Part shown: positions 483 to 56,475 of the stretch, piece after piece | Position numbering within the stretch: position 1 is the first letter of the stretch | Layout of the letters: each line of letters opens with the position of its first letter | Assembly (NCBI GenBank): GCA_040756055.1 | Contig: JBFLZR010000001.1 | Coordinates: 561,849 to 625,848 of the forward strand | Reading direction: 5' to 3' | Source of the DNA: Candidatus Zixiibacteriota bacterium | GTDB taxonomy: Bacteria > Zixibacteria > MSB-5A5 > GN15 > FEB-12 | Length of the DNA: 64,000 nt | Made by a program: the position numbers and the translations under genes | The notes under the pieces: model-generated | What the model was told of the DNA's origin: nothing | Database searches by the model: none | Seen by the model: only the letters and a program-made list of their open reading frames with translations

Positions 483-748
483 CCGCGGGTATATACGATG
501 GAGTGGCAAAAGCTCTTGGCAAAAAGAACTGAGCAAGCTATATTATCACATCAGTAGCGGGAGCATCAGGCAGGACATGAGGGCTGCCGGAACGAAAACA
601 CATTCAGCCTTTGCAGACTACAGAGATTTTGCACGCTTCCTGGCGTAACCGGCCGCAGGTTCGAAAACCGCTATAGAAACAGTCGGTGATTGCGCGAAGT
701 GCCATTTCAATTTTTGCGGGACAGATAAATGAACTGCGTTAGGAGGTG

Positions 749-1270
749 ATGCTTTTGGCTATCTTTGCCACTTTGTTCGGAGTGGGGTTTTTAATCCTGC
801 TTTTAAGCGTAATTTTCGGCCATGACGCCGAGGCCGATGGCGATACTGACACCGGTGGTGATAGTTCCGGTCCCAGCATCTTCAGCGTAAGGATGATATC
901 GTTGCTCATGGTCGGGTTCGGAGCCGCCAGCTTCGGCGTCAGAGCTTCGACTGATGCCACTATGTTTGTTTCATCCATGGCCGGGGTCGGCGGAGCTATT
1001 GTCGTCGGGGCATTCGGGTATCTTATTATAAGAATGTTCTACGCCAGTCAGGAAAGCTCGACGGTGGTGGACAATGATATAATAGGCTGCAGAGGCAATC
1101 TGATCGATGCTATTCCACCGGGAGGCAGCGGCCAGATTGCGTGCGTCATACGCGGTAGGGAGATGACATATCTCGCCCGCTCAAAAGATGGTAGCCCTAT
1201 CGGTCGGGGAGTTCCAGTGCGCGTAATCGGCAAGACCGGCAATACCGTTACCGTAGAACCGCTTGGGTAA
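749..1270 (+). CDS. NfeD-like membrane protein with C-terminal OB fold
   Basis: About 173 residues: an N-terminal hydrophobic helix (FATLFGVGFLILLLSVIF), an acidic loop rich in D and G, two further hydrophobic segments (about 50-100), then a soluble beta-rich tail (about 110-173) with NDIIGCRGNLIDAIPPGGSG and VPVRVIGKTGNTVTVEPL, typical of NfeD OB domains. NfeD-family proteins are genetically coupled to SPFH/flotillin proteins, and a flotillin-like gene follows 39 bases later, which supports the call. Start uncertain: AGGAGG at 741-746 is only two bases from the ATG at 749 but eight from an in-frame TTG at 755, so translation may begin at 755. The product probably acts with the flotillin at a membrane microdomain. 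Confidence 0.75.
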   Translation: MLLAIFATLFGVGFLILLLSVIFGHDAEADGDTDTGGDSSGPSIFSVRMISLLMVGFGAASFGVRASTDATMFVSSMAGVGGAIVVGAFGYLIIRMFYASQESSTVVDNDIIGCRGNLIDAIPPGGSGQIACVIRGREMTYLARSKDGSPIGRGVPVRVIGKTGNTVTVEPLG

Positions 1271-1309
1271 GTAAAATTCGTTTAGGTTTTTAATAGGGAG
1301 AAGTGTGAT

Positions 1310-2893
1310 ATGGATAGTTTTGTCCCGTATCTGACCTGGCCGGTGATCGGCCTGGCTGTTGTAATCGCCTTTTTTATTCTGGTCAAGGCCCTGTCGGCTT
1401 ACTATGTGAGGGTTCCCCCGAACCAGGCGGCCTTTTTCTACGGCGCCAGGAGCGGGAGGCGTGGTATGAAGCCGCTGGAAGTGTCCGCTCCAGGTGTGCC
1501 TACCGCCACCGTTCTGCCCCCGGGAACGGTGGTTGTGACTGGCGGCGGACGTATACGCAAACCGATTATCGAAGCGGTCGAATTCCTGGATCTTTCGGAA
1601 ATAACCCTTACCGACATCAGGGTGCAGAATATGCCCAACATCGATGGTGTTCTGGTAACGGTAGATGCGGTGGCCAATATTCGCTTCAGAGATGATGCGG
1701 AATCACTGCTCGCGGCAGGCTCAAGATTTCTCAAGATGGAGCGGACCCACATTATTATTACCGCTCGAGAGACCCTGGAAGCGAACCTTCGTGGTGTCGT
1801 GGGCACTCTTACGGTCGACGAATTGATTAAGGACCGCGACGCTTTCCGGCAGAAGGTTCTGGGTGAAGCCGGGGAAGACCTCGCGCGGCTGGGTATGCAG
1901 ATTGACGTATTCAACCCGCAGTCGATTACCGATGAGCAGGGATATATCGAGGCTCTGGGAAAGAAGCGTACCGCTGAGGTGAAGCGTGATGCCGCGATTG
2001 GTGAGGCGGAGGCGGTGGCCGAAGCCAAGAAAAAGGCTACAGATGCCGAGCGTGCCGCTGAAGTAGTCGCGCAAAACAACGAGAAGCTCAAAGCCGAGGC
2101 TGTCAAGAATGCTGAAGTGGCCAAGCAACAGTACGCCGCGGAAATCGCACGCGAAAAGGCCATCGCCGATCAGGCCGGCCCGCTCTCGACGGCTGAGCAG
2201 AGGCAGCGGGTTATAGTAGCTGAGGTTAAGATCGAAGAAGAAAGGTCGCGGGCTGAAATTCAGGTCGAGGCCCAAAATATCCTGCGCGAACAGAAAGCGC
2301 AGGAAGCCCAGATAGTTGTCCCCGCAAAGGCGCAGGCCGACGCTGTCGTAAGGGAGGCGGAAGGCTACAAAGTTGCGGAGACTTCCAAGGCCGACGGTGA
2401 TAAATACGCCATCAGCGCCCGGGCCGACGCGGAAAAACACAAGCGGCAGGCAGAAGGTACCGGTGAGGCTACCGCTATCGAAGCTACCGGCCTGGCCCAG
2501 GCAAGAGTGATAAGAGAACAGGGACTCGCCCGGGCTGCCGCTATTTCGGAGCTGGCTGATGCCTACGGTAAATTCAACCAGGCTGCACTCGTTCTGGAGG
2601 TTGTCAAGGCGCTTCCGCCGGCTATCGAATCTCTAGGAACCGTTTTCGGCGCTATCGCGGCCCCCATGGGTAACATTGACAAGCTCGTTATGGTAGACAG
2701 CGGCGGCGGAGGAAACGATAGCAATGCCGCCCTTAACCGTTTTGCCAAAACTGGTCCCCTACTTCTGTTCAGTCTTATTGAACAGGCCAAGGCTGCTGGC
2801 CTCGATCTATCAGAGCTTCTCAATAAAGTAGGTATCAAAACCGAACAGGCACCGGGTGAAATTGCTGCGGAGACGCCGCGCAAAAAACAGTAA
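1310..2893 (+). CDS. Flotillin-like SPFH-domain membrane scaffold protein
   Basis: 527 residues. A single N-terminal membrane anchor (WPVIGLAVVIAFFILVKAL, about 10-28) is followed by the SPFH/band-7 domain (about 30-210: YYVRVPPNQAAFFYGARSG, VDAVANIRFRD, LEANLRGVVGTLTVDEL) and a long Ala/Glu/Lys-rich coiled coil (about 220-420), then a Gly/Ala-rich tail. The order is that of YuaG/YqiK-type flotillins, which oligomerise and organise membrane microdomains. GGGAGA precedes the ATG. It sits between the NfeD-like gene and a carbonic-anhydrase-like gene 9 bases downstream, so the three are probably one operon. The specific cargo cannot be read from sequence. Confidence 0.88.
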   Translation: MDSFVPYLTWPVIGLAVVIAFFILVKALSAYYVRVPPNQAAFFYGARSGRRGMKPLEVSAPGVPTATVLPPGTVVVTGGGRIRKPIIEAVEFLDLSEITLTDIRVQNMPNIDGVLVTVDAVANIRFRDDAESLLAAGSRFLKMERTHIIITARETLEANLRGVVGTLTVDELIKDRDAFRQKVLGEAGEDLARLGMQIDVFNPQSITDEQGYIEALGKKRTAEVKRDAAIGEAEAVAEAKKKATDAERAAEVVAQNNEKLKAEAVKNAEVAKQQYAAEIAREKAIADQAGPLSTAEQRQRVIVAEVKIEEERSRAEIQVEAQNILREQKAQEAQIVVPAKAQADAVVREAEGYKVAETSKADGDKYAISARADAEKHKRQAEGTGEATAIEATGLAQARVIREQGLARAAAISELADAYGKFNQAALVLEVVKALPPAIESLGTVFGAIAAPMGNIDKLVMVDSGGGGNDSNAALNRFAKTGPLLLFSLIEQAKAAGLDLSELLNKVGIKTEQAPGEIAAETPRKKQ

Positions 2894-2902
2894 GAGCTTG
2901 TT

Positions 2903-3502
2903 ATGAGCGACGATTATTATAAGAAAGACAACGCGAATTCTCCACCAGGCAATGGCCCGGACGAGAATAATGGCGAGAATATGATGCAGCAACCAGAGGC
3001 ACCGGATCGAGGTAAGACACCCAGCGAAGCCGCTCCGGGAGGTGACGACCGAACATATTATGTCAACAGGACCCCTCCACAGGCCCTTGTCATCCACTGC
3101 AGCGACCCTCGTTTCCAACAGGCATTTCGGAGTTTCATAACCGAGGAACTCGGCATTCGCAACTATGCTCCGATTATTATAGGAGGAGGAGTACACGCCC
3201 TTGGCATGCGGGGTCTGCGCCCCAAGAATTTCAAGGTACTCTGGGAGCAGATAAGGTTCTTCATGAAGGTCTTCAGGCCCACTGAAATAGTAGTCATCAA
3301 TCACGAAGATTGTCTCTGGTATGAAAAGATGAAGGGTTATCACCCGACAATCGATCGCCTTCTGAAAGGCAAGCTGGACATGCTTACCGCGGAGAAGATC
3401 GTATTGGAGGAGTTTCCCCTGATCGAAGTGAGGGCTTTCTGGGCGGCTCTTGACAGTGACAGGATTACTTTCAAGGAATTGACAGACGATCGGTTGTCTT
3501 AG
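2903..3502 (+). CDS. Beta-carbonic-anhydrase-like protein
   Basis: 199 residues. The first 50 or so are low-complexity and hydrophilic (N, P, G, E rich), unusual for the family. The rest shows the zinc-site signature of beta-class carbonic anhydrases: HCSDPR (the C-x-D-x-R motif) near residue 67 and INHEDC (H-x-x-C) near 134, with a glycine-rich IIIGGGVHAL strand between. All three zinc ligands (Cys, His, Cys) and the Asp-Arg pair are present. The domain is short and the region after the HxxC motif is divergent, so catalysis of CO2 hydration is plausible but not assured. Nine bases separate it from the flotillin gene. Membrane-associated CO2/bicarbonate handling is an inference from context. 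Confidence 0.65.
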   Translation: MSDDYYKKDNANSPPGNGPDENNGENMMQQPEAPDRGKTPSEAAPGGDDRTYYVNRTPPQALVIHCSDPRFQQAFRSFITEELGIRNYAPIIIGGGVHALGMRGLRPKNFKVLWEQIRFFMKVFRPTEIVVINHEDCLWYEKMKGYHPTIDRLLKGKLDMLTAEKIVLEEFPLIEVRAFWAALDSDRITFKELTDDRLS

Positions 3503-3555: not shown

Positions 3556-3586
3556 AACGGGGCGGGACGAAATGTCCCGCCCCGTT
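3556..3586. terminator. Strong hairpin between convergent genes
   Basis: A perfect 13-bp stem (AACGGGGCGGGAC / GTCCCGCCCCGTT) with a GAAAT loop sits between the end of the carbonic-anhydrase-like gene and the end of the first lipoprotein gene on the other strand. It lacks a U-tract in either direction, so it may stop transcription imperfectly or mainly protect 3' ends. Confidence 0.55.
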
Positions 3587-3629: not shown

Positions 3630-4244
3630 CTATTTGGCTGAATCAGCGCCGCCACCTGCATACGAGGAGAAGTGCGATATGTCCGCATAGACGTATCCCT
3701 GGGAGTCCGCTTTGTAAGTATCCTGCAGCTCCCAGTAACCGGTCCCGGGATTGAGCCAGTAGAAATTCATGGTCGTCACATTTTTGCCGAACAGGGCTGC
3801 CACATTTATTCTCACGATGGCGGCTCGGGAAAACTGAAGTCCATCGGGGCCGAAATCATACAGCACGATCGGTTCACCCGTGGATGTTACCAAGTGCGTT
3901 ATCTCGACTGTAAAAGTTGTATCCGCCAGAAAAGATCCAGGCAGGACCACAAAAGCTTCGCTCTCCGCGTCCTCCTGAAGCGGAATCATACCGCCCAGAG
4001 AGGCCTGAAGCCACTGCGACCGGAAGTCAATTTCCAGATCGGCAACGTCGGTGCGTTTCGAAAGTGCATTTTCATCGAAGGCCTGCTCAAAGAAATCGGC
4101 GTTAGAAATGTTTGCCGTTTCGTTCAACCTTCCGCTGTCACTGCAGCCCGATAGAAAAACGAAAAACCAACAAGCAACCAACACTCCCAGCCACGCGCCT
4201 ACGCGTCGGGAGCGGGCAACCGTCCTGCCTCGACTATTTGCCAT
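3630..4244 (-). CDS. Lipoprotein paralogue 1 of the tandem array
   Basis: Start chosen at 4244 because AGGAG lies five bases upstream; a longer frame to 4265 has no ribosome site. A signal peptide ends in the lipobox LSGC. The mature protein has the two blocks shared by all five paralogues: an N-terminal NADFFEQAFDENALSKRTD segment, and a C-terminal domain with IVLYDFGPDGLQFSRAAIV, a YWLN strand and an SHFSSYA ending. The C-terminal domain weakly recalls ZU5-like beta modules (inference). It has no GG-N10-GC promoter in the 82-bp gap to paralogue 2, so it is probably read through from that gene. No function is known to me. Confidence 0.8.
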   Translation of the reverse strand: MANSRGRTVARSRRVGAWLGVLVACWFFVFLSGCSDSGRLNETANISNADFFEQAFDENALSKRTDVADLEIDFRSQWLQASLGGMIPLQEDAESEAFVVLPGSFLADTTFTVEITHLVTSTGEPIVLYDFGPDGLQFSRAAIVRINVAALFGKNVTTMNFYWLNPGTGYWELQDTYKADSQGYVYADISHFSSYAGGGADSAK

Positions 4245-4326
4245 ATGTTCTCCTCTTTTCATCACCGATGTATCGTCAGAAAGCCACTTTTGACTGTGAC
4301 TATGATGTGTTCTGATCGTATCCCTT

Positions 4327-5016
4327 CTAGATGTCAGTGTTCTTCTTTGTTGGCGAGGAACCGGTACCGTATTTCGAAAAATGGTCGATTTCGAAATAAG
4401 CCAGACCCGTGTTGGGATCCACCGGGACCTCTTCTTCGAGCTCCCACGCGTTGCTGGCTTCGTTCAACCAGTAAAGGCATACCGACAAAGTGTTTTTGCC
4501 GAAGTTCTCGAAGGCGTTGATTCTCAGCACGGCCGGTCTTGAAAAGACCAACCCATCCGGTCCAAAGTCATATATGACGGGCGTCTCTTCGTCTGCAGTG
4601 ACTATCTTTGTGACTTGAATCTGAAAGACCGTATCATAAGCAAAGGAGAGAGGCATTATGATGAACGCCTCGGCCAGATCGGCGCTTACTCTTTCGGTAC
4701 TCTCCACGCCGTCGAACTCGAGCGACGAAACCGCATCGACAACGTCAAGCAACACAACCCCGCCATCGGCTGCGGAGATCAGGCTGGAAACCGTGAAGGT
4801 TTCGTCGATCACGATGTCAGTCCGCTTTGCCAGCGCGTCGTCATAGAAGGGCTGATCGAAAAAGCTCGTGGCGTCTTGTGATAAAGCCTCTTCACCATAG
4901 TCGAGCGAGTTGTCACAGCTCTGTAGAATCACCAAAGCAAAGAGTCCTGAAAGAGCCAGGGCTGTCACCAGCAGTACATGCCGTGATTTGCTGAGTTTGC
5001 TTTGCCGGGCTGTCAT
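4327..5016 (-). CDS. Lipoprotein paralogue 2 of the tandem array
   Basis: 229 residues with GGAGG close before the ATG. Lipobox LQSC; the residue after the lipid-bearing Cys is Asp, while the other four paralogues have Ser. In enterobacteria Asp at +2 retains lipoproteins in the inner membrane, so this copy may sit in a different membrane, if that rule holds here. Shared blocks are DATSFFDQPFYDDALAKRTD, VIYDFGPDGLVFSRPAVLRI, YWLNEASNAWELEE and DHFSKYG. It has a longer middle region than the others. A sigma-54-type promoter lies upstream (5079-5092). No intrinsic terminator follows, so paralogue 1 is probably co-transcribed. Confidence 0.82.
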   Translation of the reverse strand: MTARQSKLSKSRHVLLVTALALSGLFALVILQSCDNSLDYGEEALSQDATSFFDQPFYDDALAKRTDIVIDETFTVSSLISAADGGVVLLDVVDAVSSLEFDGVESTERVSADLAEAFIIMPLSFAYDTVFQIQVTKIVTADEETPVIYDFGPDGLVFSRPAVLRINAFENFGKNTLSVCLYWLNEASNAWELEEEVPVDPNTGLAYFEIDHFSKYGTGSSPTKKNTDI

Positions 5017-5065
5017 GGCCTCCTCCTTCTAAAACTAGGGTCTTTAGTCTTTGTCAGTTCTCTTC

Positions 5066-5093
5066 GTTCTGATATGAAGCAATGGACAAGCCT
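5066..5093 (-). promoter_or_regulatory. Sigma-54-type promoter of lipoprotein 2
   Basis: Read on the minus strand, GGCTTGTCCATTGC (5092 to 5079) fits GG-N10-GC with TTGC at -12. TTCATAT follows, a degenerate form of the palindrome GTTTCA-N3-TGAARC that overlaps the -12 end in the sister promoters. The expected transcript start is about 50 bases before the ATG at 5016. Confidence 0.6.
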
Positions 5094-5291
5094 GTGGATG
5101 AAAAACCTACACAGTCGGGGTTTGTACCTCTGCAACCTGTTTTTCATTGGCCGGTTACGGAGGTGTATAATTTCTGACTGCCGGCGTTTAAGAATGAAAC
5201 AGTCGAGATTTCTGTAGATTTTTATGGGAAGTCCCCAATATCCAATAGGGAGACTCCGGCAGTTGTAGTGTTGGTAATTCACGGCTGGGTT

Positions 5292-5328
5292 GAAAAAAAA
5301 GAACCCGGGGTCTCGCGACCCCGGGGTT
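5292..5328 (-). terminator. Intrinsic terminator of lipoprotein 3
   Basis: A GC-rich hairpin (AACCCGGGGTC with GACCCCGGGGTT, 5302-5328) is followed on the minus strand by a run of eight U (5293-5300). It is nearly the same sequence as the terminators at 6284 and 7276. Confidence 0.85.
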
Positions 5329-5362
5329 GTTGTTTTGTACGTTTGGCTCTCTGCTACCGCTA

Positions 5363-5962
5363 CTAACGACTCGCACCATATTTGGAGAAATGGTATACTG
5401 GCACATGGGCATAACCGTTGTCATCAACCGGGTACTGTCCCTGCAACTCCCAGAGATTCGTCTGTTCATTCAAGTAGTAGAAATTGATCGATTTTGTACC
5501 CTTGTCGAAGAGTGTCTTGGCGTCAATCTGAAGTACGGCCGGAAGTGAAAATACGGTACCGTGAGGGCCGAATTCGTAAATCGCAGTGACAATACCGTCT
5601 TCTTCGATTCTTGTAATCTCGGCCGAAATCAGGGTGTTGGTGTAAACCGACATTGGTGCCACGGTGAAGAGATGTTTGGTGCCGACTTCAATGACGCCAC
5701 CGCCATCGACTGTCACGAGCCCTTCACCCAAGGCGATCTCGACGTCAACAGTCGGATCAGTTACCTTCTTGGCTAAAGCACTCTCGTCAAAGGGAAGTTC
5801 AAAGAAGTTGGTCTCATCCTGAGAAAGGTTCAGATCTGATGATGTAGTCGGGTTCTGGCTGCATCCGGGAAGATACAAACCGGACATCAGCGCAAACACA
5901 GCTACGAATGAAACCAGCAGCCCCCATTTTGCTGCCCGTGATTCAATCAGCTTGCTACTCAT
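5363..5962 (-). CDS. Lipoprotein paralogue 3 of the tandem array
   Basis: 199 residues. Signal peptide with lipobox LPGC and Ser at +2. It is closest to paralogue 4: both begin with a basic segment and WGLLVSFVAVFAL and share the C-terminal YHFSKYGASR. Conserved blocks are SQDETNFFELPFDESALAK, a central beta-rich stretch with EGLVTVDGGGVIEV, YEFGPHGTVFSLPAVLQI (His replaces Asp of the usual GPDG), and FYYLNEQTNLWELQGQY. It is monocistronic: sigma-54-type promoter 95 bases upstream and a strong terminator 35 bases downstream. Exported and probably membrane-anchored; function unknown. Confidence 0.83.
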   Translation of the reverse strand: MSSKLIESRAAKWGLLVSFVAVFALMSGLYLPGCSQNPTTSSDLNLSQDETNFFELPFDESALAKKVTDPTVDVEIALGEGLVTVDGGGVIEVGTKHLFTVAPMSVYTNTLISAEITRIEEDGIVTAIYEFGPHGTVFSLPAVLQIDAKTLFDKGTKSINFYYLNEQTNLWELQGQYPVDDNGYAHVPVYHFSKYGASR

Positions 5963-6043
5963 AACGCCTGCCTCTCTCCGATGTTATTTGCTGTACTATC
6001 TCTTTCGTTAACTTATACCGACCTTCTCGTCGACAATTTCGCT

Positions 6044-6072
6044 GTTTCAGATTGAAGCAATACACACGCCAA
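6044..6072 (-). promoter_or_regulatory. Sigma-54-type promoter of lipoprotein 3
   Basis: Minus strand TGGCGTGTGTATTGC (6071 to 6057) matches the -24/-12 consensus TGGCACG-N4-TTGC in both key dinucleotides and most other positions. The palindrome GTTTCAGATTGAAGC (6044-6058) overlaps the -12 element and would cover the melting region. Confidence 0.72.
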
Positions 6073-6283
6073 TGCACCGAATATTCACAGATTTCGCTCA
6101 GTCGAATAGGAAAGTTATTAGCCCGCAACCCTTTCGCCGGCTGTGCAAAAAGTGACAGCGCCCGTCTCATACTTGAACCTTTGAGTTTTTCTGTGAAAAA
6201 AACGGGGGCAGATCCAATACTGTGTTGGAAAAACCCCGACCAGGTTGACTCGCATATCTTCACAGAAAACTAATGAAATGCAA

Positions 6284-6317
6284 TAAAAAAACCCGGGGCC
6301 GTCTTTGACCCCGGGGA
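6284..6317 (-). terminator. Intrinsic terminator of lipoprotein 4
   Basis: A CCCGGGG / CCCCGGGG hairpin is followed on the minus strand by a run of seven U. The sequence is almost that of the terminator at 5292 and begins 992 bases from it. Confidence 0.82.
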
Positions 6318-6352
6318 TGTTGTTTTATGAGTGTGACTCTCTGCTACCGTAA

Positions 6353-6961
6353 CTACCTGCTGGCACCGTATTTGGAGAAATGGTATACTGGTATTTCAAT
6401 CTCGCCAAGGGCGTCAACCTGATATGAACCCTGATACTGCCAGGTATTGGTACGCTCATCCAGATAGAACCAGTTGATCGCAGATACATTGGCTCCAAAT
6501 AATTTCTGCGCATTGACCTTAAGCACAGCCGGAATTGCGAACTGAAGGCCATCCGGGCCGAAGTCGTATAATACTACAATTTCATCATGCCATTCGACTT
6601 TAGTTACTCCAATCTGGATTATCGTATCTGACGGAATGGCCATTGGTGATACGAGAAATTCATGTATGTTTCCCGCAGTACCGACCCAAATATCACCGCC
6701 GTCCTCAGTTGTAACCAGACCTTCGCCATAGAGTACTTCCACCTCCATGTTGGGGTTGACAGCCTCTTTTTCCAGCGCGGTTTCATCGTAAGGAAGCTCA
6801 AAGAAACCTTCCTGATCTTGTGAGAGGGTAAGGTCTGTAGATGTGGTCGGGCTCTGGCTACAACCGGTCAGATACAGTCCGGATAGTAGCGCAAAGACGG
6901 CCACAAAAGAAACAAGCAGCCCCCACTGGGATGCCTTAGATTCAATAATCCTACTTGCCAT
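6353..6961 (-). CDS. Lipoprotein paralogue 4 of the tandem array
   Basis: 202 residues, AAGGA before the ATG. Lipobox LTGC with Ser at +2. Near twin of paralogue 3 in its signal peptide and C-terminus. Conserved blocks are SQDQEGFFELPYDETALEKE, a central EGLVTTEDGGDIWVG, LYDFGPDGLQFAIPAVLKV, WFYLDERTNTWQYQGSY and YHFSKYGASR. It has its own sigma-54-type promoter and terminator. The similarity to paralogue 3, extending into promoter and terminator, indicates a relatively recent duplication of the whole cassette. Confidence 0.83.
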   Translation of the reverse strand: MASRIIESKASQWGLLVSFVAVFALLSGLYLTGCSQSPTTSTDLTLSQDQEGFFELPYDETALEKEAVNPNMEVEVLYGEGLVTTEDGGDIWVGTAGNIHEFLVSPMAIPSDTIIQIGVTKVEWHDEIVVLYDFGPDGLQFAIPAVLKVNAQKLFGANVSAINWFYLDERTNTWQYQGSYQVDALGEIEIPVYHFSKYGASR

Positions 6962-7039
6962 TTAGTTGTCCTTTCGCTGATGCTATGAACATCACTTGTT
7001 GTCTCTGTCTGGGCCAGCCTTTCAGCCGGCTCTTCTATC

Positions 7040-7068
7040 GTTTCAAAGTGAAGCAACATAGGGACCGA
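7040..7068 (-). promoter_or_regulatory. Sigma-54-type promoter of lipoprotein 4
   Basis: Minus strand GGTCCCTATGTTGC (7066 to 7053) gives GG-N10-GC with TTGC at -12. GTTTCAAAGTGAAGC (7040-7054) is the overlapping palindrome. The start site would be about 80 bases before the ATG at 6961. Confidence 0.62.
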
Positions 7069-7275
7069 TGAACAATAAATCTACAGAGACCAACTGGTAT
7101 TACTCGAAAGCTTCAAGAATTCAATGGCTTAAACGAGTGTTCAATTTTTGACGGCGCAAATGAGAATTGTGAACTGTTTCACTTTTTCGAAAAAAGAGCG
7201 GGATGCATCCAATACTGTATTGGAGAAATTCTAAGCTGAATGATCCGAAGATAACCGCCGGACAACTAACGAAAT

Positions 7276-7310
7276 GAAAAAAACCCGGGGCCCTGCGTGA
7301 CCCCGGGGGT
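7276..7310 (-). terminator. Intrinsic terminator of lipoprotein 5
   Basis: A CCCGGGG / CCCCGGGGG hairpin is followed on the minus strand by a run of seven U. It is the third member of a near-identical terminator set spaced at 992-base intervals. Confidence 0.82.
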
Positions 7311-7336
7311 TCAGATTTATGGATTGGAGAGATTCG

Positions 7337-7936
7337 TTATCTGGTCGATGGTCCTCCCGTACCGTATTTGGAGAAGTGGTGAACGTCAATTGCGATCACA
7401 CCTTCCTCATCAGCGTAGTAGGTACCCTGGTAAACCCATTTATTGCCTAACAGGTAATAAAAGTCGACAAACTGCTGTCCGAAGGAGGCCACTACATCGG
7501 CATCAAGAACGAGCCTGGCAGGTTTGCTGAACACCAGACCGTCAGGACAGAACTCATAAAGAATCACGGGTGATGCCACGTCACTTTCTACCACGCAAAC
7601 TCTAATTTCGAAAACCGTATCCATGGGGAAAGAATTGGCTTCAATCTCGAACGAGAAGGCGCCTTGTCCCCCCGGTACATCGATGACGCCACCCTCATCG
7701 ACAAGGATTCTGTCCCAAGTCCAGTACACGGCTTCGTATAAGCTGCTGCGCTTGGCCAGCGCCTCTTCGTCAAAGGGTAGATCGAAAAAGTTGACCTGAT
7801 CCTCTGACGAGTTAACCTCCGCTACTTTGTCGCTGCATCCCGGCAGTGCCAGCACCAGCACCAGGACACAAATCGCGATTAGCGGTGCGAATAATCGCCA
7901 GCCCCCGATCCTGTTTGCACTCTGCTTGCCTCTCAT
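7337..7936 (-). CDS. Lipoprotein paralogue 5 of the tandem array
   Basis: 199 residues with AAGGAG before the ATG. Lipobox LPGC, Ser at +2. Conserved blocks are EDQVNFFDLPFDEEALAKRS, a central GGVIDVPGG, LYEFCPDGLVFSKPARLVL (Cys replaces Gly), YYLLGNKWVYQGTYYADEEG and HHFSKYG. Of the five it shows the clearest resemblance to the ZU5-type motif GP-x-GLVFSKPA, which hints at an extracytoplasmic beta-sandwich; this is inference. Own sigma-54-type promoter upstream and terminator downstream. The next gene upstream, the large cyclase gene, is on the same strand but is separated by 246 bases that include the promoter. Confidence 0.83.
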   Translation of the reverse strand: MRGKQSANRIGGWRLFAPLIAICVLVLVLALPGCSDKVAEVNSSEDQVNFFDLPFDEEALAKRSSLYEAVYWTWDRILVDEGGVIDVPGGQGAFSFEIEANSFPMDTVFEIRVCVVESDVASPVILYEFCPDGLVFSKPARLVLDADVVASFGQQFVDFYYLLGNKWVYQGTYYADEEGVIAIDVHHFSKYGTGGPSTR

Positions 7937-8011
7937 AGTATTCTCCTTTGACTTATCTCTGATCGTCTTACACTTCAGTTGCGTAGTCCCTCCAACAAAG
8001 GCTTCTTCGGC

Positions 8012-8040
8012 GTTTCAATCTGAAGCAATCATCAGGCCGT
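8012..8040 (-). promoter_or_regulatory. Sigma-54-type promoter of lipoprotein 5
   Basis: Minus strand GGCCTGATGATTGC (8038 to 8025) fits GG-N10-GC. GTTTCAATCTGAAGC (8012-8026) is the overlapping palindrome. About 26-28 bases upstream of the TTGCTTCA block, all four promoters carry a CTGT- or GTGT-initiated short motif, a possible activator or spacing element. Confidence 0.68.
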
Positions 8041-8182
8041 GTGACCGGAAAACCCACAGCGACACGGCAGGCTCTTCGTAAGACTCCTTGTCTGTTGGGA
8101 TTAGTGCCTGTGCAAAATGTGAGCGAAGAGATTTCAGATTTTGAACCTGGCGAACAAAATTTCCAAAAGTGTGGGACGAAAC

Positions 8183-11100
8183 CTACAACGTGGGGAGCGA
8201 CTCCGGCTGCTCTTGGCCCGCGACCCGGCGCAATGAACCGGAGAAAAATGAGAAATATGATGACTCCAGAAGCTGCGGCCAACTATCGCTTCCGTTATGT
8301 TCGGTGAAGTAATCTCGTAACTCAAGCAGAACGGATGCGGCGGATGCCTGCGACGGAGGGGATGTCTCCCACAGACGAATGGCTGATTTCAGGATGAGTT
8401 CAAAAATGTTTTGCTCTTTGGCAAAAGCGAGAGATTTATTATAACAACCGGCGGCCAACCCGAATTCGTTGCTTATCCTGTGGTGCTCGCCGGTGAGGAA
8501 GACGGCTTCGTTATCCGACAGCGGAGCGCTCGCGGTGCCGGCCAGCCTCTGAATATTGGTAATTACTTCGAGAGCCTCCCGGTGGTCGCGCTTGCCGATG
8601 AGCAACCTGGCCAATCCGATACACCCCCTCGTCTGATACTCGATTGAGCCAATCTCCTCGGCGGTCGCGATTGCCTGCCGGTATAGACTCTCGGCTTGGT
8701 CGCTGTCTCCACCGAAGAAAGCCAGTTCGCCGAATCGTACATCACACTCCGACATTAACTCCTTATCGTCCACCTCAGCGGCGAACCGTGCAACTTCTTC
8801 GAATTTCTCGCGTGCAGAGCTCAAGTCGCCGCGCATCATCTCGATATCGCCCAGATTCCCCACCGTGTAATAGTGAGCGTGTCTGTCATCCAGTCTCTGG
8901 AAAATAAGGTCGGCCTGAAGAAACAGGTTCTCCGCTCTGCTCAGCTTGCCGAAAATGCGCGAGAGATTAGCGAGGTTGCCGGATGCATAGGCTACATTGC
9001 GCCGATCACCCATCTTGTCAAAAGTATCCAGCGCTATTTTCGCAAGTTCCTCTGATTTGATAAAAAACCCTCGCTCCTGTTCGATAATGGCCAGGTTGTT
9101 CTGCGTCAGTGCCAGCCTTCGAAGATCGTTACTCTCGAGTTCGACACTTTGCCGGTATACTTCGGCGGCCTCGTCGAGATTACCGGTTCCCCAGTAAGCC
9201 AGCCCGAGCCGGTTATACGCTTCCGCCAGGGTATCCTTATCGCCGATTTCGGCAGCCAACTTAACGGCGTCTCGGCCGGCCTGCTGTGCAGCGGCGAAAT
9301 CTCCTGTACGTCGCTCCAATTGGCACCTGATAGCATGTACCATCGCCTCCGCCTTCTTATCGCCGGCTTTGACTGCGAGTGGAAGAATACTGTTGAGCAC
9401 GTTCCGACTACGATGGTAGCGTGACTGCGTCCAGAGTAACCCTCCGATCTCAATGCCGGCCATCAGATAATCGTGTACGCTTTTGTTGGCTTTCCCGAAC
9501 TTGCGCCATGACGAGAGCAGTTTATATGCATCGGAATAGTGACCTTCCAAAATGAGGAACCGCGAATAGTGTTCATAGAATTCAAAAACCTGATGTGTCT
9601 CCACCTCGGCGCCGTTGCCGCGACTGAGGATTGTGGAGCACTGATGGAAATATTCCGCGCTTTCGGTGAGGGCATAGTCCCGGAAAGCTTTAATGGCCGC
9701 TCTCAGTGAATAGTAGAAACCGTCCTTCCAAGCGCTGGCGCGATAGAAATGGTATGCCAGAAGGTTGAAATGACTGTTTTCCTTCGTTTGCTTGACGATC
9801 TCAGCGTACTTTTGGTGCAGTGCTCTCAACTGTGACTTTGGAATGCAATTGTATACCGCCTCGCGCATTGACGTGTGAACAAAATTGTATTTGCCCGGCC
9901 TGCTCCGGGCCGAAAGTATGCCTGTTGTTGCCAGGATATCAAGCCGAGCCTGAATACTGCCGGCGTCAAGCTCCACGAGCGCCTTGTTTATGAGGCCGGC
10001 AGTGAAATCTCCAACGATCACCGATGCTGCTTTCAGTATGGTCCGGTCGATTTCCGGCAATCCGTCAAACAACGACAGGTGTAAACCGGCCAGTCCATCC
10101 GGCACTGATATCTGTAGTCCGCTCTTGGCAAGCTCCCATTTGCCCGATACTTCGTTTTTGAACAGGTGACCCGAGGTATCGCATTGGGTGAGAAATTCCA
10201 TAATGAAATGCGGGTTGCCCTGCGATGCTCTCAGTACCCGTCCGAACAGCTCTCTTTCTCTACTACCGTTCTGGAAATGGTCCTCAAAGAATTGCCACCA
10301 CTGCGATTCGAGCGGGCAGGCAAGATTGAGCTGCTCAAAGGTGGCAAGGGCCGCCTCAGATAGCGAGCAAGTTTCAATCTCGCGTGATACCACCACAAGC
10401 ATCAAAGGGAGGTCTGTTTCCGGCTCCGCCAGCGACTCCACGAGCGATCTGAAGAACTCGTCGGCTTTGTCAAAATCGTCCACCATCACCAAAGCCGGGT
10501 TCTGGATGAGTTTCTTGACCAGCATAACGAGCAACTCTCTGATTTTCGCTGTCCGAAGCTCGGGTGTAAGGCCTTTTGTCCAATTATTCTCCACTGCGTC
10601 AGACTGCACTATGCCGGAGAGCAGGGGCAGCCATTTGTCGTCAACATTGCTTCTGATGAATTGATCAAGCGTGCTGTTTTTCTCCGCGACGTTTTTTTCC
10701 AGCAACCGCTGAAGGAGGCGTCGCGTCAGCCAGCCGCGCTCAAACAGAAGGGAGTTTTTGCAGGCCAGTGCCGCGTAGACAATCTCGGGACTGGTGTTTA
10801 CGAAATTGGTCAACAGGAAGGTCTTACCCACTCCTGTTTCTCCCGTGACGGCCATGAGATGTTTTTCACCGTGATTGACGCGGTCATAGGCGCTTCTGAG
10901 CCGCTCGAGTTCTTGGTGCTGTCCGACGATAACGGTTTTTTCCGTGCGCGATTCGCCCTTTTCGCTGACCCCGACGAAGCGGTGACAACTGACCTTATCG
11001 CCGAATCCCTTGAGTGCCAGTTGAACCGGTTCGGTAATTACCTCATCGGGCAGTCTGCTTCGCAGAGAAGGTCCCATAAGAATTTCGTTCCATGCAGCCT

Positions 11101-12265
11101 TAGCCATCAATCTGGCGGCCAGATTGATGCCGTCGCCCATCACGGTGTACTCGCGTCTTAATTCGGCTCCGACGTCGCCGCAGAAGAGGGGTCCGATAGC
11201 GAGGCCCACGCGAATCCGAAAAGAGGCGTCAGCCATCGCTACCAGTTCTCTGGCGCAGAGCAGCCCGTTTATCTCATCATTCTCGCGCTTGGTGGGCGCC
11301 CCGAATAGTACCAACAGTTTGTGGCCGCGCTTGAACGGATCAATGCGGGCAATGCTCCCGTGGAGTCGGCGGATGGTCTCGAAGCAGGCCGCGAGTTTCC
11401 GGTTCAACTCGACGACGGCCTGGTCCGGGTCATCGCTTCGTCGCCCGATGTTGTTTTCAAAGGCGGCGAAGAGGACTACTACCTGGCGATGCTCCCCCTG
11501 CACGGACATCGATGGCACCGATGTCTCGATTTTCGCCAACACGTCTCGCGCAACATAGGGCGTCAGCCGCTGACAGCCTTCAAGAGACAAATAATCGTTG
11601 GCGGCACCGGCGTCGTTCTCCGGAGGTCTCGATACATATCGAGCAGCCACGAGACTATAACCTTCACCGACGGGCGTGAGTTTTTCGCTCTCGCTACGCA
11701 GAGCGCCCAGCGCCGGGCCGATTACGAATTCGTTTTCACCGGCGATATCGCAGGCCTGATAGACCTTGCCGAGAATATTTCCGATTGGTTCGGCTTCAAG
11801 TCGGACACCGGGATCTCCCAACGAAGCGAGAAAAAAAGACCCGCTCTCGGCTCCAATGTGTATTTTCAACCGGGTTCTATCCTTCAGTTCAGGGGCCGAG
11901 TTCACTGACTCCAGAGCAGTGAGCGCACAGTGGAAGAATCCTCCGATGTCAAGATCATCGCGGAAGAACGCCCACAGAGCATCGCCCGCGAACTTCAGGA
12001 CATCGCCGCCAAACTTGAATACAACACCCGCAACGGCATCAAAAAAGAGGTTCAGCACTCTGGTGAGAATCTCGGGCCCTTCGTCGCCGGACCTTGAAAG
12101 CTGTCGGGTCAGGGCCGTAAAACCGGAGGCGTCTATGCAGACAATGATACCATGGTGTTCACTCAGTTTGTGAACCTCATCGGCAGTCGACCGGCTATAC
12201 CAATCGCAGATGGTCCGCGGTATATAGGGTAGCAGGTTCTTGTAGTGATTATCGAGCTCACCCAT
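8183..12265 (-). CDS. Soluble-adenylyl-cyclase-like protein: two class III cyclase domains, AAA-type ATPase, TPR
   Basis: 1360 residues; the start at 12265 overlaps the stop of the upstream gene. Cyclase domain 1 (about 38-210) has both metal Asp residues (D45 in CIDASGFT, D95 in KFAGDALW) and the adenine-type Lys K91. Domain 2 (about 255-430) lacks the metal residues (LFAAFEN) but keeps the transition-state Asn and Arg (N380, R384 in GDGINLAARL). This complementary split matches mammalian sAC, so one pseudo-heterodimeric site making cAMP is predicted. A Walker A motif GETGVGKT (474-481) opens an AAA/STAND-type ATPase, followed by about 600 residues of helical repeats with several TPR units. 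Cytosolic; the ligand sensed is unknown. Confidence 0.85.
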   Translation of the reverse strand: MGELDNHYKNLLPYIPRTICDWYSRSTADEVHKLSEHHGIIVCIDASGFTALTRQLSRSGDEGPEILTRVLNLFFDAVAGVVFKFGGDVLKFAGDALWAFFRDDLDIGGFFHCALTALESVNSAPELKDRTRLKIHIGAESGSFFLASLGDPGVRLEAEPIGNILGKVYQACDIAGENEFVIGPALGALRSESEKLTPVGEGYSLVAARYVSRPPENDAGAANDYLSLEGCQRLTPYVARDVLAKIETSVPSMSVQGEHRQVVVLFAAFENNIGRRSDDPDQAVVELNRKLAACFETIRRLHGSIARIDPFKRGHKLLVLFGAPTKRENDEINGLLCARELVAMADASFRIRVGLAIGPLFCGDVGAELRREYTVMGDGINLAARLMAKAAWNEILMGPSLRSRLPDEVITEPVQLALKGFGDKVSCHRFVGVSEKGESRTEKTVIVGQHQELERLRSAYDRVNHGEKHLMAVTGETGVGKTFLLTNFVNTSPEIVYAALACKNSLLFERGWLTRRLLQRLLEKNVAEKNSTLDQFIRSNVDDKWLPLLSGIVQSDAVENNWTKGLTPELRTAKIRELLVMLVKKLIQNPALVMVDDFDKADEFFRSLVESLAEPETDLPLMLVVVSREIETCSLSEAALATFEQLNLACPLESQWWQFFEDHFQNGSRERELFGRVLRASQGNPHFIMEFLTQCDTSGHLFKNEVSGKWELAKSGLQISVPDGLAGLHLSLFDGLPEIDRTILKAASVIVGDFTAGLINKALVELDAGSIQARLDILATTGILSARSRPGKYNFVHTSMREAVYNCIPKSQLRALHQKYAEIVKQTKENSHFNLLAYHFYRASAWKDGFYYSLRAAIKAFRDYALTESAEYFHQCSTILSRGNGAEVETHQVFEFYEHYSRFLILEGHYSDAYKLLSSWRKFGKANKSVHDYLMAGIEIGGLLWTQSRYHRSRNVLNSILPLAVKAGDKKAEAMVHAIRCQLERRTGDFAAAQQAGRDAVKLAAEIGDKDTLAEAYNRLGLAYWGTGNLDEAAEVYRQSVELESNDLRRLALTQNNLAIIEQERGFFIKSEELAKIALDTFDKMGDRRNVAYASGNLANLSRIFGKLSRAENLFLQADLIFQRLDDRHAHYYTVGNLGDIEMMRGDLSSAREKFEEVARFAAEVDDKELMSECDVRFGELAFFGGDSDQAESLYRQAIATAEEIGSIEYQTRGCIGLARLLIGKRDHREALEVITNIQRLAGTASAPLSDNEAVFLTGEHHRISNEFGLAAGCYNKSLAFAKEQNIFELILKSAIRLWETSPPSQASAASVLLELRDYFTEHNGSDSWPQLLESSYFSFFSGSLRRVAGQEQPESLPTL

Positions 12266-12611
12266 TGTAAACAAAGATCCTGATGGCAAACAGCACGAGA
12301 ATGTGCACGGCCTGGTCAAAGTAGAAGGCCTGTTTGGTACCGTTGAACTTGTATGCCTTCAAATAGTCCTGAAGCCAGTGTGCCACGAAAATGACGATCA
12401 GCGCTACGGCAGTACTCAAATGGAAAAAGGCGGTGCTGGCATTCATATACAGACCAAAAAAGAGAAAGACGGCCATTACCAGCGTATACATGGCGACATG
12501 ATAGGTCAGCACACCGATGGAACGTTTCTTTTCTTCTGCCACACGATCGCTCTGCAAAGCAAAGTCGCCGAAAAAATGTCCGAGCACCAGATAGAACAAC
12601 AGGTCAACCAT
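12258..12611 (-). CDS. DUF3307-like small membrane protein
   Basis: 117 residues, mostly hydrophobic, with about four membrane helices. The pattern GHFFGDFALQSD near the N-terminus, a conserved LTYHVAMY segment and AHWLQDYLKA in the third quarter is that of the DUF3307 family, whose biochemical role is not known. It overlaps the kinase gene before it and the cyclase gene after it by eight bases each, so translation is coupled. The position between a cNMP-binding kinase and a cyclase suggests a membrane partner in that signalling system. Confidence 0.7.
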   Translation of the reverse strand: MVDLLFYLVLGHFFGDFALQSDRVAEEKKRSIGVLTYHVAMYTLVMAVFLFFGLYMNASTAFFHLSTAVALIVIFVAHWLQDYLKAYKFNGTKQAFYFDQAVHILVLFAIRIFVYNG

Positions 12612-14133
12612 TGAAGCCCTCCCTGGTCAAGGGCAAGGTGATTTCAAAGGTCGTTCCGGCACCGACTTTCGAATCGATTTTCATCCGGCCGCTGTGCGCC
12701 TGAACGATCTTGAAGACCGACATCAGACCTATTCCATGTCCTCGTTCCTTGGTTGTAAATCGTTCTTTGAAAACCTTCGCTATAAGCCCTTCGGCCATAC
12801 CGGGACCGTTGTCGATGACCTTTATAACCGCCATGTGTTCTTCGGGAGCGATCGACATGTCAACCGTTATCTGCTTATGCTCTTTTTCCGTGCACTGAGA
12901 CAGAGCTTCGGCCGCGTTGACGAGAAGATTTATGATGACGCGACGAATCTGATCTTCCTTGACCGGAAGAGCCGAGGGGAAATCAGCGCTTACTTTACGG
13001 GCGAACTTGATAGTCTGGAAAGCCGCCTGCGACCGGCAGAATCTTATAAGAGCGCTTACGGCGGACGGCAGGTTAACGGCACGAAATTCGCTTTTATCGT
13101 CGCGATATATCATCATGTTCTCGACAAACTGCACAATCTCGTGTGAAGTATCGGAGATAGCCTGGAATGAACCCTTCATCTGGGCTTTCTGATCGGGTGA
13201 AAGCCGGGTCAGCGCCAGTTCGACATTGCCAATCAAAACGCCAAGATAATTCTTGAGGTCATGCGCCAGCTCGCTGGCGGTTTCCTGGGCGCTTTCGTAT
13301 TTCTCGATGTCCACTATGGTTTGGTTGAGAACCTTCAATTCCGAAATATCCTGACAGATTATCAGATGCAGGACAATATCGCCATGGCCGGACAGGGATG
13401 TAACCGAGAGATATACCGGAAACCGCTCGCTGTTTCTGAGCCCGGTGGCTTCGCCGTGCCAGTACTCTATGTCGCTGGCCAGAATATTTGCGATGTCGAA
13501 ATTTTCTATCAGCGAGCCTATCGCGATGTCCTCTTCCGGGTTGGCAATCTCGAACATCCGCAGGGTGGCTTTATTCATTCGGAAAATGTCGCCACGATTC
13601 GTCGTCAACAGGATCGGACTCGGGGATTGGTCTACGACACAATCCAGAAACGAGTTGAGATGAACAAGCTCTTCGTTGGTCTTTGTCAGAAGCCGATTAT
13701 TTTCTTCGAGCTCCTCCATACGCGAAGAATCTGACTCACGGAGCTTGCTGGAAAGACTCCGAAGCACCCGCGTTGCCAGCGCCGGTTGTTCGCGAATACA
13801 CTTTTCGAAATTGACTCTGGAAAATTCGAGCACCTGACAGTCGGATCCGGCGACAACGGTGGCAAACCGCGGCGATTCTTCCACCAGCGCCATTTCACCG
13901 ATGAAATCACCGGGTCCGCGCAATGCAATCAGGCGCGGAGCGACTTTGTCGCTGCCCTGTTTGAGAACGCGCACGGTACCACGTAAAACCAGAAGCATGG
14001 TGCTTCCGGGTTCACCCTCAGCGAATATGACCTCGCCCGGCTGATACTCTTTTGCCAATGAGTATTCTTCAGCAAGGCGGATGAGAACCAGGTCTAAAGC
14101 AGGGTTGGTCGAACTCAGGTTGTTTATCCGCAT
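12604..14133 (-). CDS. Sensor histidine kinase with cyclic-nucleotide-binding and PAS domains
   Basis: 509 residues, no membrane helix. Order: cNMP-binding domain (about 20-140; VIFAEGEPGSTMLLVLRGT, GDFIGEMALVEESPRFATV), a short coiled coil, a PAS domain (about 165-275), a histidine-containing helix ELAHDLKNYLGVLIGN with the presumed phosphorylated His, then an HATPase domain with NLLVNAAEAL (N box), DNGPGMAE (G1) and GHGIGLMSV (G2). No receiver or response regulator is encoded nearby. Since a cyclase gene lies in the same operon, cAMP is the likely ligand of the first domain (inference). A palindrome resembling those at the lipoprotein promoters lies about 115 bases upstream. Confidence 0.88.
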   Translation of the reverse strand: MRINNLSSTNPALDLVLIRLAEEYSLAKEYQPGEVIFAEGEPGSTMLLVLRGTVRVLKQGSDKVAPRLIALRGPGDFIGEMALVEESPRFATVVAGSDCQVLEFSRVNFEKCIREQPALATRVLRSLSSKLRESDSSRMEELEENNRLLTKTNEELVHLNSFLDCVVDQSPSPILLTTNRGDIFRMNKATLRMFEIANPEEDIAIGSLIENFDIANILASDIEYWHGEATGLRNSERFPVYLSVTSLSGHGDIVLHLIICQDISELKVLNQTIVDIEKYESAQETASELAHDLKNYLGVLIGNVELALTRLSPDQKAQMKGSFQAISDTSHEIVQFVENMMIYRDDKSEFRAVNLPSAVSALIRFCRSQAAFQTIKFARKVSADFPSALPVKEDQIRRVIINLLVNAAEALSQCTEKEHKQITVDMSIAPEEHMAVIKVIDNGPGMAEGLIAKVFKERFTTKERGHGIGLMSVFKIVQAHSGRMKIDSKVGAGTTFEITLPLTREGFNG

Positions 14134-14246
14134 AGTCTTAGGTATCGGTAAAACAACGAGAAATCTTTATGTGCTCGCCTGATTGCAGTCGATGAAAAAA
14201 GGTGTTTTACGAGGACTTAGCTTACAATAATGTCAGCGAATCCGCT

Positions 14247-14261
14247 GTTTCAAACTGAAAC
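14247..14261 (-). promoter_or_regulatory. Palindrome upstream of the kinase-cyclase operon
   Basis: GTTTCAAACTGAAAC is a perfect GTTTCA-N3-TGAAAC inverted repeat. The same motif, with GC in place of the last AC, overlaps the four sigma-54-type promoters of the lipoprotein array. There is no GG-N10-GC here, so it would be a repressor or activator site rather than a sigma-54 promoter. Confidence 0.4.
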
Positions 14262-49753: not shown

Positions 49754-49851
49754 CGATCCAATAAGATTGACTATCGGGACCTCACTTAATGCCGCTCCCG
49801 AGCGGTACTGCCATACCCTCTGAAACGCACCGCGGCAGACGCAAAAAACAA

Positions 49852-49881
49852 TTGTCAACGGGGAAGCAAAAGGCTTATAAT
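49852..49881 (+). promoter_or_regulatory. Promoter of the multiheme cytochrome cluster
   Basis: TTGTCA (49852-49857), 18-base spacer, perfect TATAAT (49876-49881), placing the transcript start about 40 bases before the ATG at 49930. It also shows that the open frame upstream of 49930 is not coding. Confidence 0.65.
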
Positions 49882-49929
49882 ACAATACTTCCAATTAGCG
49901 ACAACAATCAGAAAAGGCTTCAGGATATT

Positions 49930-51441: not shown

Positions 51442-51494
51442 AGCGCAACCTGCTGCCCGACAGTGGTGCAAGCCGTGCTTGTGAAAAATAGTGC

Positions 51495-51522
51495 TTGAAG
51501 TTAGTGAATATTTACTTATATT
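51495..51522 (+). promoter_or_regulatory. Possible internal promoter before the 11-heme cytochrome
   Basis: TTGAAG (51495-51500), 16-base spacer, TATATT (51517-51522) in the 198-bp gap between the first and second cytochrome genes. The gap otherwise holds nothing recognisable. Confidence 0.4.
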
Positions 51523-51639
51523 TTCGGGAAAACAGGATTATTTCGGTCGTATGGGTTCACGCCAACCAGAGATCTTGGCATAACCGCCACGGTTTGACCG
51601 AATCGTACCGACCGGGTAAACAAAGATGGTGTGGGGCTT

Positions 51640-53903: not shown

Positions 53904-53910
53904 AGACGCG

Positions 53911-56429: not shown

Positions 56430-56475
56430 TAAATAAATAGTGCCAGTATGGCACCGAAATAAGAGGAGTCAATAA

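Follow-up and report, generated by a model that had tools for sequence, protein, structure and literature searches.

Introduction

Sigma-54-dependent genes of the bacterial exterior form regulons that comprise lipoproteins and surface components and feature -24/-12 promoters together with upstream activator sites (Francke et al. 2011, PMC3162934). A second described case are the RpoN-dependent PEP-CTERM genes, where sigma-54 promoters are accompanied by an upstream candidate enhancer and PrsK-PrsR has been proposed as the two-component activator (PMC9850573). In addition, enhancer-binding proteins without GAFTGA motif (TyrR, HupR, VpsR and Caulobacter NtrC) have been described to act on sigma-70 promoters (PMC10274813, PMC3162934). 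Here we analyze a tandem array of five lipoprotein genes located on a 64,000-nucleotide stretch of contig JBFLZR010000001.1 (positions 561,849 to 625,848, assembly GCA_040756055.1) of a Candidatus Zixiibacteriota bacterium. This whole stretch is referred to as the window, and all positions are given within it. We propose that a live activator acting at a distal enhancer drives the array and is opposed by a second enhancer-binding protein that has apparently lost its motor (the dead activator) and would act as a repressor. Judged from the sequences, we assign this whole model a probability of roughly 0.55.

Lipoprotein array and sigma-54-type promoters

The open reading frame (ORF) list of the window contains five lipoprotein ORFs in tandem on the minus strand with products of 199–229 amino acids. 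Combining the ORFs with an alignment and a tree, they were assigned to orthologous groups A to D (see below): gene 1 (3630–4265, group D), gene 2 (4327–5016, group C), gene 3 (5363–5962, group B), gene 4 (6353–6961, group B), of which gene 3 is a duplicate, and gene 5 (7337–7936, group A). All five paralogues share a lipobox cysteine, an FF..PFD..ALAK-type block and a C-terminal domain with FGPDG.VF and HFSKYG, which bears out how they had been characterized in a preliminary description of the window. The lipobox cysteine is invariant in the five array proteins and in 62 of 62 family members, as expected for lipoprotein signal peptides. Pairwise identity among the tandem paralogues is 32–52%.

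Upstream of genes 2 to 5 the minus strand carries sigma-54-type -24/-12 elements at 5079–5092, 6057–6070, 7053–7066 and 8025–8038, located 76, 108, 105 and 102 bp before the respective gene start and thus at similar distances, as previously described. In the order of genes 2 to 5 the minus-strand strings are GGCTTGTCCATTGC, GGCGTGTGTATTGC, GGTCCCTATGTTGC and GGCCTGATGATTGC, each followed by TTCA. The -12 region TTGCTTCA is identical in all four, and all show GG-N10-GC spacing. This spacing had been recognized correctly, but the “N9” given with it was wrong, the actual pattern being GGC or GGT, N7 and TTGC. In the window we counted four copies of GG-N8-TTGCTTCA, where 0.17 would be expected. 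The genome scan suggested in the preliminary description was carried out and returned seven copies in the whole 3.3-Mb genome, four of which lie at the array. When the spacer was extended by one base as a control we again obtained seven genome matches, about chance level, none of them at the array.

For gene 1 no sigma-54 site was found within 420 bp upstream. Because it lacks a site of its own and starts only 61 bp after gene 2, gene 1 is probably co-transcribed with gene 2. The terminator scan located the three strong individual terminators noted earlier on the minus strand after gene 5 (7284–7307), gene 4 (6292–6315) and gene 3 (5304–5325). The array would consequently comprise four predicted transcription units, namely gene 5, gene 4, gene 3 and genes 2+1, each with its own -24/-12 promoter.

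The absence of rpoN had been named beforehand as an argument against sigma-54 control; the genome contains one copy of this gene. It furthermore encodes 17 strong matches to enhancer-binding proteins, 16 of them with recognizable motor motifs. Together with the conservation of the promoters in four related genomes and throughout the phylum (see below) these findings uphold the assumption of alternative-sigma control, and we regard the array as very likely sigma-54-controlled.

A shared control region of about 200 bp

Fifteen promoters from four related genomes, anchored at the GG of the -24 element, can be aligned over approximately 200 bp almost without gaps. In the window this control region spans 208 bp on the minus strand at each of the four promoters, as determined by alignment and genome search: 5055–5262 (gene 2), 6033–6240 (gene 3), 7029–7236 (gene 4) and 8001–8208 (gene 5), the last overlapping the end of the upstream cyclase gene. 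Conserved upstream blocks are CCaatAc.gTatTGG at -158, CCC at -137 and GTT.a...t.tgaa at -108. Closer to the promoter we found gTCAAAa.TTGCACA at -86, TAA at -65 and TGTgg.TTTTTC at -19. Following GG and TTGC, a CTTCA-N3-TGAAAC pattern spans the predicted start site. The outermost block constitutes a distal dyad, CCnAYA-N3-TRTnGG, approximately 158 bp upstream of the -24 element. It is located at 6214–6228 for gene 3 (plus strand CCAATACTGTGTTGG) and at 7209–7223 for gene 4 (plus strand CCAATACTGTATTGG); imperfect versions were identified by conservation for gene 2 (5235–5250, a candidate enhancer) and gene 5 (8182–8195). The conserved dyads at -158 and -108 are candidate upstream activator sites.

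Within the array the upstream identity of paralogue pairs reaches 37–46% at the best register and is mostly 16–37% at other registers. The best register is zero except for pairs with gene 5, where it is one base off. A sequence model of the control region detects only the array promoters in its own genome (E-values 1e-27 to 1e-30, next match 0.165), and strong matches in the relatives are likewise confined to arrays. In addition, an independent full copy of 203 bp, which was left out of model building, was found immediately in front of a homologue from a different family within the class (E-value 6e-14). The array therefore very probably represents a dedicated shared regulon: a control region occurring at arrays only fits the “dedicated” set postulated earlier. 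The units had also been called separately controllable. This holds in so far as each is equipped with a promoter and a terminator of its own and the start-site operator differs between orthologous groups; the distal dyad, by contrast, is common to all of them.

Neither a consensus RNA structure nor an Rfam match was found for the control region, which argues that the constraint acts on the DNA, and the RNA element reading was dropped. Three further candidates were discarded. A 22-bp periodicity of conserved positions was unconvincing (the nominal p of 0.035 applies to a single lag out of many, and the spectrum showed no peak). An integration host factor site in the -86 block is, by eye, one base of spacing off the E. 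coli consensus. A perfect match to the CC-dyad near the activator L021 lies within a reading frame and was taken as chance.

Conservation across the phylum

Arrays are also present in three further genomes of the genus with four, four and six genes, and in one genome of another genus (G023) with two. In total, homologues were found in 57 of 132 genomes of the phylum. GG-N8-TTGC is located between -120 and -30 in 39 of 68 distant homologues with callable start, genes that are related and hence do not represent 68 independent trials. The corresponding control values are 1.6 for shuffled sequence, 0–8 for other spacers and 1 for the opposite strand. C and A of the sigma-54 consensus GGCA emerge in the distant promoters although the pattern does not demand them. 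On the same contigs the promoter precedes 22 of 32 lipoprotein genes versus 7 of 149 neighboring genes. The distal dyad, scored at 9–10 of 10 positions, was found in 13 of 47 distant promoters versus 1.2 expected, mostly 120–157 bp upstream of GG.

These data also bear on the question whether the promoters resemble each other merely as copied DNA, duplicated together with the genes and devoid of function. Genes 3 and 4 are indeed duplicates with similar flanks. However, exact spacing and consensus recur in the 39 of 68 homologues phylum-wide, and the sites are conserved between ancient orthologous groups while the intervening bases have diverged. We therefore give practically no credence to this explanation and consider it refuted in practice.

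In five genomes from four families a gene for an enhancer-binding protein lies immediately upstream of a lipoprotein gene in the same direction. In other genomes, including this genus, the neighbors of the lipoprotein genes are a histidine kinase with cyclic-nucleotide-binding domain and a cyclase-AAA-TPR protein. The adjacent activators of the other families form a clade separate from the own-genome activators they were compared with, in a tree that left out the dead activator; they are therefore not proposed as regulator here. As side observations, GAFTDA replaces GAFTGA in the lipoprotein-adjacent activators L165–L168 and L173 and in L010 of the own genome, and L021, also from the own genome, reads GAFTNA. 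In other families (L165, L166, L168 and L173) a gene order of activator, lipoprotein and then one or two TPR-like proteins is conserved.

Fold and orthologous groups of the lipoproteins

In the tree the lipoproteins fall into four orthologous groups arranged in the near-fixed order A-B-C-D across the genus. Group B is duplicated in this genome (genes 3 and 4) and group D is expanded in bin72. By this tree-based assignment there are four ancient orthologous groups, A to D. Such stability bears on the antigenic variation that the preliminary description had considered. An antigenically or phase-variable surface array would agree with tandem paralogues of 32–52% identity gathered in one place and with genes 3 and 4 as a lineage-specific duplicate pair. 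The ordered orthologous groups speak against it, as does the single control region common to all units, and a search for phase-variation repeat tracts and inverted repeats found none. Given the stable groups and the lack of such repeats, antigenic variation is unlikely on sequence grounds, and we attach only a very small probability to a variable array as explanation for the locus.

An AlphaFold2 model of the mature gene 4 protein reached a predicted local distance difference test score of 91. The best Foldseek hits of the model are ankyrin ZU5 structures (PDB 3ud1, 3ud2, 3kbt, 4d8o) with a probability of 1.0 and a template modeling score of about 0.53, at E-values of just 0.006–0.02 and 10–16% identity. 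The Pfam ZU5 profile matches weakly, with 10 of 62 members at E ≤ 0.1 (best 4.7e-4), and the modeled gene 4 protein itself is absent from the listed matches. Family and structure-sequence searches with the lipoproteins returned no other convincing protein family or solved sequence. The structural hits, together with these weak profile matches, support the initial guess of a ZU5-related domain, and the predicted fold of the lipoproteins is a ZU5-like beta-sandwich.

A common operator and a degenerate activator

A second operator, GTTTCA-N3-TGAAAC, covers the predicted start sites of gene 3 (6044–6058), gene 4 (7040–7054) and gene 5 (8012–8026) with one mismatch each. A further copy with one mismatch occupies the -108 position of gene 2 (5186–5200). 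The sole perfect copy in the genome is located upstream of the neighboring kinase gene (14247–14261) and is kept in all four genus genomes, in one of them with one mismatch. Allowing up to one mismatch, the operator occurs at 15 places in the genome versus one for the reversed pattern. Five of these copies are located at this locus (naive binomial estimate for 5 of 15 copies falling into 1.5 kb of promoter sequence: 6e-14). Two more belong to a remote operon encoding a sensor, an enhancer-binding protein and a GAF protein, one in its promoter and one in its first codons; the remaining one-mismatch copies are mostly found within genes. The operator thus links the lipoprotein start sites, the adjacent kinase gene and the remote sensor-activator operon, where it is present in the same four genus genomes. 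Counterpart operons in G023, G005, G004 and G003 carry operator copies at 1–2 mismatches. Separately from these, bin72 contains two extra perfect copies in intergenic positions (G027:C1:3467509 and 3470562; L262, L265), which precede predicted exported-protein genes and may mark further targets there.

Both the remote operon and the kinase gene feature sigma-28-type sites, TAAA-N16/17-CCGATA, whose distance to the start codon does not vary within the genus. For the kinase gene the site (TAAA-N17-CCGATA, 14143–14169, minus strand) starts at -36 in four genus genomes, and the operator is situated about 80 bp above it. In the remote operon the operator lies just downstream of the predicted start, while in lipoprotein groups A and B it covers the start. 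FliA is present in the genome, which contains 26 sigma-28-type sites in comparison to 11 in the reversed control; one of them precedes a cheW-like gene. As an observation apart, a further site (G000:C1:737648-737673) lies 63 bases before the rpoN start codon and would place rpoN under a flagellar-type sigma factor.

In the four genus genomes the activator of the remote operon (L024-type) is devoid of the receiver aspartate and the GAFTGA loop, and neither the Walker-B glutamate nor the two arginine fingers remain. The Walker-B motif of the genus reads FDD and the arginine-finger region is of FSKELFYQL type; both regions are intact in G003–G005 and G023. The loop is replaced in the four genus genomes and reads GAFTSA or GSFTSA in orthologues. 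The Fis-type helix-turn-helix is kept (Pfam HTH_8, E-value 6e-13), and the recognition segment LGIGRTTLWRKVKKY is unchanged despite these losses. The other three genomes of the genus also have the dead activator as an open reading frame, 56–61% identical to the own-genome copy, which rules out a sequencing artefact as well as gene decay. It has apparently lost its motor and kept its DNA-binding part and operators. The genus sensor of the operon lacks the histidine. In G003–G005 the operon encodes an apparently intact two-component pair with receiver aspartate, GAFTSA loop, arginine fingers and kinase H-box and G-box; the intact version of the system is found in another family. In G023 the ATPase part of the kinase looks lost. 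If an activator did turn into a repressor, the relatives would show steps of this switch: intact in G003–G005, intermediate in G023 and dead in this genus.

On this basis the GTTTCA operator probably belongs to the dead activator. An alternative arrangement would be an ordinary sigma-54 regulon. One standard enhancer-binding protein would then drive the array, GTTTCA-N3-TGAAAC would be the site of this protein or of some other regulator, and lipoprotein control would not involve the dead activator. The 16 activators with intact motifs and the live activator genes directly upstream of lipoprotein genes in five genomes and four families fit this arrangement. It leaves unaccounted for, however, why four genomes have the operator in the promoter of the dead activator itself, why four counterpart operons carry it at 1–2 mismatches, and why the recognition segment stayed constant while the motor motifs were lost. 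We consider an ordinary regulon unlikely, though a serious competitor.

Proposed circuit

In the circuit that we favor an intact activator, one of the 16 candidates in the genome, would bind the distal dyad and drive all units. The dead activator would bind GTTTCA-N3-TGAAAC via its conserved helix-turn-helix, repress its own sigma-28-type promoter and act as a block over the start sites of lipoprotein groups A and B. The adjacent cyclase and the cyclic-nucleotide-binding kinase would be the likely input. With receiver aspartate, GAFTGA loop, Walker-B glutamate and arginine fingers missing, the dead activator should not be able to activate sigma-54; whether it acts as a repressor instead we rate at about even odds from the operator positions. 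It could also be a positive regulator of another kind, aiding the live activator or acting at sigma-28-type promoters. GAFTGA-less proteins activate sigma-70 promoters elsewhere (PMC10274813), and operators also occupy upstream positions: the -108 position in lipoprotein promoters and, at the kinase gene, a place about 80 bp above the sigma-28-type site. Yet the operators of groups A and B lie at the predicted start sites and that of the own operon closely follows its predicted start, positions typical of repression; a positive role seems improbable to us.

Several points weigh against the repressor circuit. The second operator copy of the sensor operon falls within the opening codons of the sensor gene (MLTKEFHDEA), where coding constraints may account for its conservation. 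The lipoprotein promoters of G003 and G004 lack the full GTTTCA dyad and have a TGAAAC half site approximately 20 bp before the -24 element. In group C and D promoters the start-site operator is missing or barely kept. Since GAFTGA-less activators can activate sigma-70 promoters elsewhere, the dead one need not repress. Furthermore, we infer the operator assignment and the sign of regulation from position and the pairing of proteins with dyads from co-occurrence.

Taken as one evolutionary scenario, an ancestral two-component regulator of the lipoprotein promoters would have lost its phospho-acceptor, its sigma-54 contact loop, its ATPase residues and the catalytic parts of its kinase partner and kept its operators. 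It would now repress on sigma-54 promoters, control having passed to the cyclase and the cyclic-nucleotide-binding kinase with the same operator. We put this joint scenario forward tentatively, with somewhat more doubt than confidence.

Neighboring genes

Directly upstream of the array, on the minus strand, lies the gene of the cyclase-AAA_16-TPR protein (8183–12319, 1378 amino acids), followed by that of the histidine kinase with cyclic-nucleotide-binding domain (12604–14133, minus strand); both are conserved neighbors. Between them a DUF3307 membrane protein is encoded at 12258–12611, a position kept in the genus. On the other side of the array NfeD-like, flotillin and carbonic-anhydrase-like genes (Pro_CA_2, below cut-off) at 746–3502 are oriented towards it. 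A strong GC-rich hairpin at 3557–3585, seen by reading the sequence, separates gene 1 from the convergent carbonic-anhydrase-like gene and may serve as a two-way terminator. Further away, at 49789–58443, a run of genes features many CxxCH motifs and cytochrome-b-like membrane proteins, which from the translations alone are possibly involved in electron transfer.

Comparison with known systems

With this array, an unannotated, phylum-wide family of envelope lipoproteins becomes tied to sigma-54 control. The lineage is represented here by metagenome-assembled genomes alone, and the locus offers a concrete candidate circuit made up of promoters, two operators, a sensor, a kinase and a cyclase. 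Compared across genomes, an ATP-driven activator seems to become a DNA-bound non-activator with its operators kept, and this series makes the conversion from activator to repressor directly testable with few purified proteins and short DNA pieces. A motor-dead enhancer-binding protein with operators on sigma-54 promoters was not found in the literature searched, which by itself does not prove novelty.

As in the sigma-54 regulons of the bacterial exterior (PMC3162934), lipoproteins are found under -24/-12 promoters with candidate upstream sites. In contrast to these, the array belongs to an uncultivated phylum and forms a dedicated four-unit set whose units share a 200-bp control region present at no other place in the genome. 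The PEP-CTERM genes with PrsK-PrsR also encode envelope proteins, and their sigma-54 promoters are likewise accompanied by a candidate enhancer; the array proteins differ in being lipid-anchored and ZU5-like, a PEP-CTERM motif was not noted in them, and the two-component pair linked to the array is degenerate in this genus. With regard to its fold the lipoprotein is predicted to resemble ankyrin ZU5 domains, although the array proteins are lipid-anchored bacterial envelope proteins with only 10–16% identity. Like TyrR, HupR, VpsR and Caulobacter NtrC, the dead activator appears to have lost the sigma-54 contact loop and to keep DNA binding. Unlike these proteins it also lacks the receiver aspartate, the Walker-B glutamate and the arginine fingers, and its candidate operators are located on sigma-54 promoters.

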